Of a stretch of DNA of 20,040 nt, positions 1 through 19,192 are shown one piece after another. The position numbers and the translations under genes are program-made. This DNA comes from a virus. The notes under the pieces are model-generated. The model saw only the letters and a program-made list of their open reading frames with translations, had not been told where the DNA came from and did not search any database. How positions within the stretch are numbered: the stretch's first letter is position 1; every line of letters starts with the position of its first letter. Location: positions 1-20,040 of the IMG/VR virus record IMGVR_UViG_3300027759_000538; one strand, written 5' to 3'.

Positions 1-223
1 ACACAAGAGCTATATCTTCTCTCTTTAATTGACCAGATACACCTAAAAAAGCACTTGCAAACGCAGTTTGAGTGGTTGCCAAGTTGGTATCCCAAGGAAA
101 ATCAAGAGCGGAAATAGCACTACCGGAAGATAGAGCTACAAGATCGCCAACTTGAATCGCCTTGTCGGTGGCAACAGGGGCCACCACAGGATTAGTCGCA
201 TTGAAACTGTAAGTAATCGCCAT
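1..223 (-). CDS. Small capsid-associated (decoration-like) protein, 3' end cut by window
   Basis: The reading frame is open from an ATG at 223 to the window edge, giving 74 residues that begin MAITYSFNATNPVVAP and continue with a run of short hydrophobic and small-residue segments (VGDLVALSSGSAIS). An AAGGAG at 233-238 lies 9 bases before this ATG; an ATG at 229 is also in frame but only 3 bases from the AAGGAG, so 223 is preferred. It directly follows the protease-scaffold gene in the leftward head operon, the usual place of head decoration proteins (DUF2190-like) or of a protein just before the major capsid protein. The function is inferred from position and composition; the C-terminus lies outside the window. 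Confidence 0.6.
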   Translation of the reverse strand, partial: MAITYSFNATNPVVAPVATDKAIQVGDLVALSSGSAISALDFPWDTNLATTQTAFASAFLGVSGQLKREDIALV

Positions 224-3764: not shown

Positions 3765-3870
3765 CTAAAACCAGGCCTGGATTATTAATAGGATAAACAA
3801 CTCTATATAACATATCATACAATATATTTATAGAATAAACATATTAGCAGTTACACTATCTTAATTAATT

Positions 3871-3953
3871 AAGATAAAGTTTATCTTTAATATATTATGA
3901 ATGATAATAGTGGATAAAGTTTATCTTTATTATTTAAGATAAACTTTATACTT
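3871..3953. repeat. Three GATAAA(G/C)TTTATC-type palindromes, operator-like
   Basis: Copy 1 (3871-3887) is AAGATAAAGTTTATCTT, with perfect 8-bp arms around one central base. Copy 2 (3913-3925) has perfect 6-bp arms and shares 17 bases in direct orientation with copy 1 (3873-3889 and 3913-3929). Copy 3 (3936-3953) is the complement-centred form with one inserted base. Centres are 40 and 25 bases apart. Repeated short palindromes of this kind are typical binding sites for a dimeric repressor or replication initiator. Which protein binds is unknown; the window also encodes a ribbon-helix-helix protein and two HTH-like proteins. Confidence 0.6.
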
Positions 3954-4247
3954 AATAATTTATATGTTAGAATGTATTAAATAGAGGGATAGTTTTTTTA
4001 TTATATATATATCTATATATATAAAATATATATATAATTATATAAGTAATATATAAGACTTTAAGGATATCATATCCCCCTAACACACCCATAATCCTTT
4101 ACCATAATCTTTTATGAAATAGAATCTTTTTATTCCCCCGATAGATACCACGGGAACTAATTTATTTCATTTTTTCCTTGTCGTAAAATAGATTAAAATA
4201 GCAATTATTTTAAAAAGTTTTAAGTGCTTATATCATAAGGGTTTACA

Positions 4248-15978: not shown

Positions 15979-16431
15979 ATGGAAGATGAAATTACCATGA
16001 TTGATCAAGAGTTGAGGCAGATAGTTGCTCCGAGTTTTTCGCCACCATGCAGTCTTAATGAAGATGCATATGTGGAACCGCTAACCATAACAGGTGTTGT
16101 TAATGCTGACGAGCAGCTTTTGAAGTTTCTTTTGTTCAACGGCATATCTACCCATGCTATTGGGCAAAACAAGATGATGTCTATCACCAGTATAGATGAC
16201 ATCACTTCGGGCAGAGGATCGTATTCTGACACGATCATAAAAGTGAGAATGAAAATGGGCGATTTAAACACAGTTGTTTCTATTGAATTATCAAATGAGC
16301 AACTTGAAGAAATTGTAAGGATTGGTCTTCGCACTCAGTTTGGTGCAAGTGTTGAGTCAGTCAAAGTGATATCGTTGTATCACGGACTTAAAAAGTACGA
16401 GTTAGAAGTTACTTTTAAAGGGAGAGGTTAA
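15979..16431 (+). CDS. Hypothetical protein (150 aa)
   Basis: Begins MEDEITMIDQELRQIVAPSF with several small strands in the middle (TIIKVRMKMGDLNTVVSIEL) and a helix NEQLEEIVRIGLRTQFG, ending in an alternating strand pair (VKVISLYHGLKKYELEVTFK). This looks like a compact alpha/beta domain, but no family was recognised. AAAGGGG is before the ATG. The stop overlaps the next start by TAATG, so it is coupled to the Sak4-like ATPase. An alternative ATG at residue 7 is possible. Confidence 0.65.
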   Translation: MEDEITMIDQELRQIVAPSFSPPCSLNEDAYVEPLTITGVVNADEQLLKFLLFNGISTHAIGQNKMMSITSIDDITSGRGSYSDTIIKVRMKMGDLNTVVSIELSNEQLEEIVRIGLRTQFGASVESVKVISLYHGLKKYELEVTFKGRG

Positions 16432-17171
16432 TGAAAATTGGGAAGCCTGTTGGTTTCGGTTTGACTAACAAGCCAAAGGCAGTTGTCTTTGGTGCAGAGG
16501 GTTCGGGTAAATCTACGATGGGCAGTAAGCTTTCTAAAGCTTTGTTCATTGATGTCGAAGGCGGTATTTCTGGCATTGATATTGATTGTGTGGCAATAAA
16601 AACATGGTCAGAATTTGTGGCTACGATCAAAGAGATCGTAACATCTACAGAGTTTGCTTATGAAAATATTGTCATCGATTCTCTAACCGCTTTGGAAAGA
16701 TTGCTTCATCAGCACATCTGCCAAACATCTGGAGCATCATCAATCGTGCTAGCGTGTGGCGGGTATGGTAAAGGTCTTGTCGAGTCTGTAACGCAGATGT
16801 CTCTGCTTATTAACTCGCTAAATGCCAAGAAGGATCTTGGGGTTTACTTCCTGTGTCATTCAACAGTAAAGTCTGTCAATGATCCAACAAGAGGTGAATA
16901 CGCTTCTTTTGGGGTTCGGGCTGATAAGGCCATGTCTGAATGGGTTACTTCTTGGGCTGATCTAATTGGCTTCGTTGAAATCGACCTGATGGTTGGTGAC
17001 GATGGCAAGCCAATTATCAAAAAGGATGGTAATGAGGTTCGCAGAACCATTACTGTAACTCCAAGGGGTGGACTGACTGCGAAATCACGGATTCCAGGTG
17101 TGATTGGAACCATGACGGTTGATAGTTTTGTGTCTAAGATCAATGAAATCTTTTCTAAGAAGGGTAAGTAA
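16431..17171 (+). CDS. Sak4-like/AAA_24 ATPase (single-strand annealing recombinase type)
   Basis: 246 residues. Walker A is GAEGSGKST (21-29), followed by ALFIDVEGG, and Walker B is NIVIDSLTALER (79-90). FLCHSTVKS and the C-terminal RRTITVTPRGGLTAK are typical of the phage AAA_24 group, whose Sak4 members act as RecA-core recombinases that bind ssDNA and anneal with an SSB partner. A DUF669 gene follows at once, the usual neighbour. The start is the ATG of the TAATG overlap. Confidence 0.82.
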   Translation: MKIGKPVGFGLTNKPKAVVFGAEGSGKSTMGSKLSKALFIDVEGGISGIDIDCVAIKTWSEFVATIKEIVTSTEFAYENIVIDSLTALERLLHQHICQTSGASSIVLACGGYGKGLVESVTQMSLLINSLNAKKDLGVYFLCHSTVKSVNDPTRGEYASFGVRADKAMSEWVTSWADLIGFVEIDLMVGDDGKPIIKKDGNEVRRTITVTPRGGLTAKSRIPGVIGTMTVDSFVSKINEIFSKKGK

Positions 17172-17173
17172 TT

Positions 17174-17569
17174 ATGTCTGATGAATTTGAAATCTTTGGC
17201 CAAGATGAAGCAAAAGAGCTTTTAAAGGCTGATATTCTTCCCCCAGGGGAATATCCAGTAATTATCACCAAAGCGGAAGTCCGTACCAAAGATGACAAGA
17301 AATGGTTGTCTCTTGGTTGTCAGATCGATGCTCCACATGATATGCAGGGAAGGTACAAAACCTTTACGCTGTATATCAAAGACGGTCATCCTAATCCGCA
17401 GGTGTGTAGCATCCATGCTAAGTTAAGGCAGAGTCTTGATGCTGCTCTTGGATTAGATCGCATGACCCTGACAAACATCATTGGTCAAGCCTGTGTGGTT
17501 AAAATCAAAAACAGCGAAAAGAACGGTTCTACCTATGAAAATGTAGAAAAGTTTTTGAAAGCTGTCTAA
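17174..17569 (+). CDS. DUF669-family protein, copy 1
   Basis: 131 residues. The pattern LPPGEYPVIITKAEVRTKDD, then a strand with GRYKTFTLYI, a helical segment, and a C-terminal strand with NSEKNGSTYENVEKFL matches DUF669, a small phage family found next to AAA_24/Sak4 ATPases and thought to bind ssDNA like an SSB. The start is ATG 17174, with AAGGG before it, 2 bases after the ATPase stop. A second relative lies at 18258. Confidence 0.75.
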   Translation: MSDEFEIFGQDEAKELLKADILPPGEYPVIITKAEVRTKDDKKWLSLGCQIDAPHDMQGRYKTFTLYIKDGHPNPQVCSIHAKLRQSLDAALGLDRMTLTNIIGQACVVKIKNSEKNGSTYENVEKFLKAV

Positions 17570-17571
17570 TC

Positions 17572-17633
17572 TTTGCTCATGTTGCACTTGGAAGCAACCG
17601 ATAAGAAAGGCAAGGAGGTGCAACATGAGTAAA
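17572..17633 (+). promoter_or_regulatory. Long hairpin that buries the lipoprotein start codon
   Basis: CTCATGTTGCAC (17576-17587) is the exact reverse complement of GTGCAACATGAG (17618-17629), which includes the ATG at 17625. TTT (17572-17574) with AAA (17631-17633) and G-U pairs extend the stem to about 18 pairs, with a loop of about 25 bases. The AGGAGG ribosome binding site (17613-17618) straddles the top of the stem. Translation should be blocked until the stem is opened, for example by ribosomes, RNase or an antisense RNA. Confidence 0.7.
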
Positions 17634-17777
17634 CTTTTCTTGTTTTGTTTGTGTTTCTTGATTGGATGTCAGGGAACAAGGAATTCGATAGAAACTGGGG
17701 CATCGACAACTTTAATGTCTGATTCCCCAGTAATCGAAAAAATGGATGTAAATCTTAAGTTTAAAAAGGAGTGGTAG
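17625..17777 (+). CDS. Small lipoprotein (50 aa)
   Basis: From ATG 17625 to TAG 17775-17777 the frame encodes 50 residues: MSKLFLFCLCFLIGC at the N-terminus, a short hydrophobic signal with lipobox LIGC (12-15, acylated Cys15), then a 35-residue hydrophilic tail (QGTRNSIETGASTTLMSDS). A near-perfect AGGAGG is present, but start and site lie in a strong hairpin. Small phage lipoproteins include Rz1-type spanins, superinfection-exclusion proteins such as T5 Llp, and lysis or entericidin-like peptides. Its location in a recombination operon is unusual. Which function applies is unknown. Confidence 0.7.
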   Translation: MSKLFLFCLCFLIGCQGTRNSIETGASTTLMSDSPVIEKMDVNLKFKKEW

Positions 17778-17779
17778 AC

Positions 17780-18256
17780 ATGGAAGTTATTGCCAATATT
17801 TTTGAGTTACGAGCAGCGGTTACAAATGCTTTTGGTGAAAAAAGTTTTATTGAAACACTAGAACGCAGAGGAATGTATCGCTCACGGATTGCATCAGTTG
17901 TAGACACGGACTGGTCTACTGAAGATGGCCAGCTAATAGCACATCATTGGACAGTCGATCCAGAACCTATCGTTGAGAAATTCAATTTCCCGCCAACTTG
18001 GTCGAACAAAGAAAGTTGGAAAAACACCTTTGAGTCTGATTACCCTGAGTGTTTAGAAGATGCCTTGGATATCGCTCTTTGGACTCCAAGAACCCCATCT
18101 AGATTAATTATCGAGGACGATAACGGTATTAGGGTTTTGAAATCGATTGAGACAGATCCAGTTCAAAGGGTTGAAGAAAAAAGAATTAAACCTGTTAGCT
18201 TTCCGATTAAAAGGAAGAAGCCTGTTAGCAATCAACCTACCTTATTTGGAGTTTAA
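17780..18256 (+). CDS. Hypothetical protein (158 aa) with C-terminal clamp-binding-like motif
   Basis: The start is ATG 17780, with AAGGAG 8 bases upstream; a GTG 9 bases earlier overlaps the lipoprotein stop. Residues 1-110 form an unrecognised domain (IANIFELRAAVTNAFGEK; TDWSTEDGQLIAHHWTVDPE), residues about 110-150 a charged linker rich in Lys and Pro. The final residues QPTLFGV fit the QxxLF pattern of beta-sliding-clamp-binding peptides, which usually sit at protein ends after flexible linkers, as here. A replication- or repair-linked role is inferred from the motif and from its place between two DUF669 genes. Confidence 0.65.
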   Translation: MEVIANIFELRAAVTNAFGEKSFIETLERRGMYRSRIASVVDTDWSTEDGQLIAHHWTVDPEPIVEKFNFPPTWSNKESWKNTFESDYPECLEDALDIALWTPRTPSRLIIEDDNGIRVLKSIETDPVQRVEEKRIKPVSFPIKRKKPVSNQPTLFGV

Positions 18257-18257
18257 C

Positions 18258-18635
18258 ATGAGTGATGAACCTTTATTCGATCCAGAAGAAACCAAACCGA
18301 TTCCCGCTGGAACTTACTCTGCTCGCATCATGCGAGCGGAGATCAAGACATCCAGAGCGGGAAATAAATATCTTGCTTGCGATATGCAGATACTTCAAGG
18401 GGCACAACAGGGCAGAGCATTGGATGCGAATTTCCATATCTTTTCGACTGATACAAAGTTTCGTGCAGACTCAAGAAGGAAGCTGGCTCGACTGGCTTCA
18501 TCATGCGGTATCACTACTGTAATGAAACCCGAAGAGCTAGTAGACAAACCCTTCCTAGTTGAAATAGGCGAAACAACGGATAACTATGGGGCAACAAATT
18601 TGATTCTTGGGTACTCAAAGTTAGGGAGAAGTTAA
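18258..18635 (+). CDS. DUF669-family protein, copy 2
   Basis: 125 residues. The start is ATG 18258, with TTTGGAG 8 bases before it. IPAGTYSARIMRAEIKTSRA, GRALDANFHIF, LARLASSCGI and NYGATNLILGYSKLG correspond in order to segments of the 17174 DUF669 protein (LPPGEYPVIITKAEVRTKDD and so on), though identity is limited. DUF669 proteins are inferred ssDNA-binding partners of Sak4-like ATPases. Two copies in one operon are uncommon. Its stop overlaps the HNH gene start (TAATG). Confidence 0.72.
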   Translation: MSDEPLFDPEETKPIPAGTYSARIMRAEIKTSRAGNKYLACDMQILQGAQQGRALDANFHIFSTDTKFRADSRRKLARLASSCGITTVMKPEELVDKPFLVEIGETTDNYGATNLILGYSKLGRS

Positions 18636-19192
18636 TGAATGCAATTAAAGAAAGAATTACATCGATAAGTGGAATCCCTTTAGAACATATACAATCGATA
18701 TTAAAAATAGATCCAAGTAGCCCATCGGGGTTAATGTGGATTCCGAGAGAATTACATTTTAATCAAAAAGATAAATGCGGAAGTGTTCGCATTGGGAAAA
18801 AGGATGGATACAGAAGGTTTACTGTAACCATTAGATATGATAAAAAACAATATACTGTAACTTGCAGCAAAATAATATTACTTTTAGCTAACGGATTCCT
18901 TACTGAAGGGAAATATATTGATCATATAGATGGAAATTCTTTAAATAATAATTTAGAAAACTTAAGAGAGGTTACTGCTTGTCAAAACGGACACAACAAA
19001 AAAATTTCAAAAATTAACACATCAGGAAATAAAGGAATTAGTTGGAATAAAAAAAACAAGAAATGGCTAGTGCAAATGGTTGCAAATGGTAAATTTCATT
19101 ATTTTGGACTTTATGAAAATAAAGAAGATGCAATTAAGGTTTCTATAGAAGCAAGAAAAAAACTTCATGGTGAATTTGGGAGAGATAAATAA
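18635..19192 (+). CDS. HNH endonuclease with AP2 domain (homing type)
   Basis: 185 residues. Residues about 80-122 hold the HNH core: ILLLANGFLTEG then YIDHIDGNSLNNNLENLREV (94-113) with Asp96-His97, Asn101 and Asn109. Residues 129-182 are an AP2-type DNA-binding domain (TSGNKGISWNKKNKKW; FGLYENKEDAIKVSIEARKK). This pair is typical of free-standing phage homing endonucleases. Both ends are TAATG overlaps. Its codons are visibly more A/T-rich than the neighbours (strings of AAA, AAT, TTA), which fits a later arrival. Cutting site unknown. Confidence 0.88.
   Translation: MNAIKERITSISGIPLEHIQSILKIDPSSPSGLMWIPRELHFNQKDKCGSVRIGKKDGYRRFTVTIRYDKKQYTVTCSKIILLLANGFLTEGKYIDHIDGNSLNNNLENLREVTACQNGHNKKISKINTSGNKGISWNKKNKKWLVQMVANGKFHYFGLYENKEDAIKVSIEARKKLHGEFGRDK

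Follow-up and report, generated by a model that had tools for sequence, protein, structure and literature searches.

Gene neighbourhood of the lipoprotein gene

The stretch of DNA analyzed here (the window) comprises 20,040 bases of the virus record IMGVR_UViG_3300027759_000538, and all coordinates are window positions. From about 15.6 kb it carries a replication and recombination module on the plus strand, to which all genes named in this paragraph belong. A Sak4-like AAA_24 protein (16431-17171) is followed by a DUF669 / phage ssDNA-binding-like protein (17174-17569; Pfam DUF669 E 1e-4, phrog_378 E 2.3e-7), whose stop codon TAA lies at 17567-17569. Next comes the gene under study (17625-17777). 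The reading of this locus made earlier from the letters alone (the sequence-only reading) had called its product a 50-aa lipoprotein with the lipobox LIGC, and this gene was confirmed. Its product has a conserved C-terminal SPVIEK...KEW, and pN/pS is 0.27 among the closest relatives (clade A, see below). The adjoining gene (17780-18256) begins 2 nt past the lipoprotein stop, encodes a 158-aa protein without known family and is a conserved neighbour. A second DUF669 protein (18258-18635), an HNH_3/AP2 endonuclease (18635-19192) and a helicase follow. The two DUF669 genes, both ssDNA-binding-like, thus bracket the lipoprotein gene and the 158-aa gene. The HNH_3/AP2 gene, likely for a free-standing homing endonuclease, has the second DUF669 gene and the helicase gene as its neighbours; in record G001 it is absent and these two directly abut.

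For identification of relatives, IMG/VR was searched with the DUF669 protein, the lipoprotein and the product of the next gene. All searches converged on one set of contigs, and the final two revealed no further lipoprotein clade. In GTDB genomes, 129 pattern matches were obtained for relatives of the next gene, none of which was confirmed, and the phage collection contained no relative of the DUF669 protein or of the next gene. Phage relatives were found for the portal protein (two, weak) and the Sak4-like protein (110, distant) and are uninformative for the host, for which Planctomycetota is only a guess from motifs.

The leaders of 41 loci (the window and 40 contigs) were compared, 28 of them distinct. 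They fall into six sequence groups: A (29 loci including the window), B (L029-L031), C (L063-L065), D (L058, L059, L105), E (L092) and F (L097, L098). Loci cut by a contig end (L033, L060/L102/L193, L103/L162/L195, L133) were excluded from folding, L105 is truncated at its end, and internal stops were checked in part of the 41 lipoprotein genes. In the loci read, the gene order is DUF669, lipoprotein, 158-aa gene. L028, identical to L062 (contig 3300027770_002709), carries a 22-base deletion which breaks the lipoprotein frame and leaves the hairpin described below intact; it was folded but excluded from the lipoprotein pN/pS. In L097 (2500-3120, clade F) an alternative frame is open across the lipoprotein gene and continues in frame into the next gene.

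A hairpin over the start site

Between the DUF669 gene and the lipoprotein gene lies an exact 12-bp inverted repeat, CTCATGTTGCAC at 17576-17587 and GTGCAACATGAG at 17618-17629. In full, the stem joins 17572-17589 to 17616-17633 by 18 pairs, of which two are G-U. The sequence-only reading had described a perfect 12-bp stem over the ATG that touches the Shine-Dalgarno (SD) sequence and extends to about 18 pairs, and both descriptions proved accurate. The 5' arm (17572-17589) starts 2 nt past the DUF669 stop, and its assignment rests on pairing and covariation. It is followed by a loop of 26 nt (17590-17615) and by the 3' arm (17616-17633), which contains half of the GGAGG, the start codon and codons 2-3. 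All bases of the lipoprotein start codon (17625-17627) are paired, as are the last three bases of the GGAGG (17614-17618), the first two of which lie in the loop. The SD sequence AAGGAGGTG (17612-17620, plus strand) is very strong, with a predicted anti-SD duplex of -15.1 kcal/mol. This is the best value among 37 starts of the window, the next best being -10.7 kcal/mol. Such a strong SD beneath a stable hairpin would be expected for a start that is off by default and efficient once open. The SD rank, the position of the stem 2 nt past the upstream stop and a mini-ORF opened by the 5' arm go beyond what had been noticed from the letters.

Comparison of the fold with shuffled sequences, which the sequence-only reading had proposed, gave a clear result for the 74 nt that run from the stop of DUF669 and hold the hairpin: its -27.0 kcal/mol (z -4.57) was reached by none of 200 shuffles. 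The result for a 121-nt fold was weaker (z -2.26), with 4 of 200 shuffles at least as stable. Of the 746 ATGs on both strands of the window, 28 have a local fold that reaches or exceeds the stability of -27 kcal/mol, and in a list of 38 starts, 37 of them genuine plus-strand starts, the energy of the hairpin ranks third. The fold energy alone is therefore unexceptional for the lipoprotein start, and the case rests on conservation. Five longer inverted repeats, AT-rich and imperfect, occur in a non-coding stretch at 3.86-4.06 kb; this region between two gene blocks (3850-4060) is dense in AT-rich inverted repeats and may be a regulatory or origin region.

Conservation and covariation of the hairpin

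In predicted minimum-energy folds, every one of the 41 loci, with their 28 distinct leaders, has at least three of the five GGAGG bases paired. For the AUG, pairing is complete in 36 loci, involves two bases in three and is absent in two. The z values of the representatives range from -2.45 to -7.15 (10 of 10). A single consensus fold for the six clades (alignment A7) failed, with clades D and F using different pairs, and the common-stem test was therefore done on alignment A6, which holds 23 of the 28 distinct leaders, all of the long-stem type; it omits L058, L059, L097 and L098, which have another hairpin, and, by oversight, L023 of clade A.

In A6, 98.3% of 410 cells are paired, compared to 95.3 +/- 0.4% in shuffled alignments and 33-55% when the partner is slid. 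Changes on both sides were found at 5 of the 18 pairs (shuffled mean 1.0; none of 500 shuffles had as many) and in 13 cells versus 3.2 shuffled, and the covariation score was 0.218 versus 0.157; as the rows are related by descent, these shuffle counts are not probabilities. In clade C, for example, codons 2-3 are altered and the opposite arm is altered to match. The long stem is missing in L058, L059, L105, L097 and L098, in which a different hairpin lies over the SD instead, formed by GUUGCCU with AGGUGAC in clade D and by UCAUC with GGUGA in clade F (L097). Since the hairpin has apparently been replaced by another one in two clades, masking of the SD rather than one specific stem looks to be the selected property. 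The sequence-only reading had looked to covariation in homologues for support, and to homologues that keep the gene and lack the stem for evidence against it. The search for covariation gave the changes at 5 of the 18 pairs, and the homologues without the stem carry the other SD hairpins while the rest covary, so that the reading withstands this check.

The stem could also be a chance product or an inverted repeat acting on the DNA level, such as a binding site or a cruciform, and the equally stable folds at 28 of the 746 ATGs would fit this. It is contradicted by the covariation and by a strand bias: G-U cells number 62 and A-C cells only one, so that the folded strand is the coding or mRNA strand. 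The changes keep the pairing of the coding strand alone, a bias not to be expected of an inverted repeat in DNA, and we regard the chance or DNA-level explanation as hardly credible. The conservation with compensating changes is the strong evidence that the hairpin matters, and it identifies a real, conserved mRNA hairpin which masks the start and has undergone compensatory change on the mRNA strand. The locus is a clear case, in uncultured lake phages, of RNA structure at a start site being retained through sequence divergence.

The lipoprotein family

The lipoprotein is probably an envelope-anchored phage protein. A lipobox signal peptide (L.GCQ pattern) is present in 7 of 7 aligned members, which share the invariant motifs L.GCQ, SPVIEK and EW. 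Searches of Pfam, PHROGs, PADLOC and PDB gave no significant match. In NCBIfam nothing exceeded the cut-off; the best match there, NF038215, was to the member from L063 (E 1.2e-4; 21.8 bits, cut-off 33). The AlphaFold model is poor (mean pLDDT 61.3). Literature searches returned precedents for the mechanism; among the entries examined, neither the lipoprotein nor the hairpin was described.

The sequence-only reading had suggested an exclusion or lysis peptide. This part of its interpretation found no significant support, no relative having been obtained above the cut-offs, while the part on a hairpin covering start and SD was supported. Rz1-type outer spanins are likewise small lipoproteins, and their profiles give insignificant matches to the family (PHROGs E 0.04-0.14 in three members, from the window, L063 and L092; tblastn E 1 and worse). 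However, no Rz inner spanin partner is adjacent to the window gene, which sits in the recombination module between the genes for DUF669 and the family-less 158-aa protein. T5 Llp is a phage superinfection-exclusion lipoprotein. Exclusion lipoproteins of this kind are also small, possess a lipobox and are encoded in a non-structural region, but proteins of the Llp/Cor type show no sequence similarity to the family in the libraries searched, and an exclusion role here is hypothetical. The task of the lipoprotein may be exclusion, lysis or another one at the envelope. The hairpin marks an unnamed lipoprotein family whose output the phage seems to control.

Proposed opening of the hairpin by upstream translation

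The DUF669 gene and the lipoprotein gene are adjacent and on the same strand; in the window the stem begins 2 nt past the upstream stop. We propose that the cis-acting hairpin blocks independent initiation and is opened by translational coupling to DUF669, and we hold this, somewhat guardedly, to be the probable arrangement. The hairpin on the operon mRNA would conceal the SD and start codon of the lipoprotein gene, so that ribosomes would be unable to initiate there alone. A ribosome ending DUF669 translation would occupy the base of the 5' arm and thereby release the SD, and the lipoprotein would then be made in step with the ssDNA-binding-type protein.

This arrangement was modelled with a ribosome on the stop codon which hides 12 nt counted from the first base of the stop. 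For the window, the modelled cost of opening the region from SD to AUG falls from 12.2 to 6.1 kcal/mol with masking. Each of the 11 representatives shows a fall, which is trivial in L098 (7.4 to 7.0 kcal/mol) and weak in L063 of clade C (24.6 to 19.5 kcal/mol), where opening stays costly. A control with the 5' arm removed was unclean, with at least 8 kcal/mol left in 6 of 13 rows from residual folds, and is disregarded.

Coupling by RNA unfolding is established for phage f1 VII-IX, MS2 coat-lysis and E. coli rpmI-rplT (+52 nt), as described in a review (PMC12548453). In these systems, too, a downstream start is locked by a hairpin beside a co-directional upstream stop, and the rpmI-rplT spacing is similar to that of the phage lipoprotein genes, in which the stop-to-start gap is 43-60 nt (11 representatives). 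They differ in that the presumed target here, a lipoprotein, is encoded in a replication module, that the 18-pair stem is accompanied by covariation and that coupling is predicted. Mechanisms of this kind are known; for the lipoprotein family no named match was obtained. Several points count against coupling: a gap of 43-60 nt exceeds that of most efficiently coupled pairs, a screen cited in the same review found that structure just past the stop reduced coupling (PMC12548453), and in so short an intergenic gap any hairpin is nearly forced to start near the stop. A late promoter, RNA processing or a trans-acting factor could act in place of coupling. Read-through of the DUF669 stop into the mini-ORF described below was considered and rejected, the frame being shared in the window and not in clades B and C. 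The locus provides a covariation-backed candidate for translational coupling which is suited to a simple reporter.

The loop element and other rival explanations

The loop contains the sequence CGAT (17599-17602), which is invariant in 12 of 12 rows of alignment A7 across the six clades and is, besides SD and start, the sole block of four invariant columns. It forms part of a bipartite element, T.A.G[TC]T - 14 nt - [CT]CGAT[AG], with fixed spacing in all six clades. The element occurs once each in four phage records and the window, always at the hairpin (5 hits versus 1.0 +/- 0.9 in shuffles, for a pattern derived from those same sites). In clades D and F, where the sequence is TAAAGTT(G/C)-N12-GTCGAT(G/A), it resembles the sigma-28 consensus. 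A sigma-28-like promoter in the loop was nevertheless rejected: the pattern TAAA-15..18-[CT]CGAT[AG] is unenriched in the four records and the window (12 versus 11.9 shuffled), and a second scan, over a spacing range that excluded the D/F spacing, gave 11 forward and reverse hits versus 17 in the control. The loop has no sigma-70-like site, and no recurring or consensus promoter was found between the 5' arm and the ribosome binding site, although the promoter motifs of the phage itself may differ. The loop element is possibly a protein site.

The element bears on two alternatives to coupling. The hairpin might silence read-through RNA until a later promoter or an RNase cut inside it frees the start, as for T4 e, soc, 49 and I-TevI, where the SD and/or AUG likewise lie in a helix on a long operon transcript. 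The anatomy agrees with that of T4 e (PMC3014915), and the bipartite element of fixed spacing lies within the hairpin in six clades. Yet for the lipoprotein hairpin, in contrast to the e type, no phage promoter within it has been demonstrated; the element is found only at the hairpin, the sigma-28-like pattern is unenriched and a sigma-70-like site is missing from the loop, which leaves timed release of this type rather unlikely. Alternatively, a phage or host protein or a small RNA could bind the CGAT and open or lock the hairpin, in the manner of T4 gp32/gp43/RegA-type control. The invariance of CGAT across six clades would be accounted for, as would the low divergence of the loop in clade A, with a mean difference of 1.85% over 22 loop nt against 14.5% for the lipoprotein gene. 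But a partner is not known, the mini-ORF would conserve the loop too, and Rfam gives only chance matches (6 up to E 10 among cis-regulatory families including thermosensors, all under the gathering scores). Such a regulator appears quite improbable to us.

Premature termination was also weighed, in which the hairpin together with U-rich signal-peptide codons would act as an attenuator controlling the downstream operon. U-rich tracts do follow the stem in clades A, B and C, but they follow from Phe/Leu codons and are absent in D and F. Moreover, the loop has 26 nt, and the hairpin is missing from a terminator scan, which counts loops of 3-8 nt only. This makes an attenuator very improbable.

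A mini-ORF threading the hairpin

A mini-ORF of 17 codons (MLHLEATDKKGKEVQHE, 17579-17632, plus strand) threads the hairpin, from an ATG at 17579 in the 5' arm to a TAA stop at 17630-17632, and ends on the lipoprotein start (ATGAGTAA). Its translation is possible. Ribosomes leaving DUF669 could restart at 17579, translate the 17 codons and thereby unzip the stem, stop exactly on the lipoprotein start and hand over to it, which would make the hairpin a two-step relay. In clades A, B, C and E, 12-16 nt separate the stop of DUF669 from this ATG; the mini-ORF stops on the lipoprotein start in the clade A, B and C representatives, in B and C via ATGA, and in clade E it runs in frame into the lipoprotein. 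In clade A, pN/pS is 0.07 in the mini-ORF frame, close to the 0.08 of DUF669, while the other frames give 0.21 and 6.07.

Much of this would arise without any relay, however. CATG is self-complementary, so that any stem over the start also places an ATG opposite it, in the 5' arm, and termination at ATGA or AGTAA follows almost by necessity. The pN/pS value derives from only nine variable sites, six of them synonymous, and the requirement for pairing by itself favours changes of this sort, 13 of 37 transitions that preserve pairing being synonymous. In addition, the mini-ORF has no SD, its peptide shows no conservation between clades, clades D and F have no ATG at this position, and L025 has lost the stop. 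We consider the relay unlikely and prefer direct coupling to DUF669. If the relay were true, production of an envelope lipoprotein would be linked to the availability of a replication protein, and the CGAT of the loop could add a regulator to the relay. In L092 (1740-1960) the loop is one base shorter, which puts the mini-ORF in frame and would give the lipoprotein a possible N-terminal extension of 15 residues.

A stable fold was also observed upstream of the MPTPAENL gene (G001 25297, G004 36228, G005 4233 and G006 40767), with -27 to -32 kcal/mol in 4 of 4 records; it is perhaps the terminator of the preceding gene.
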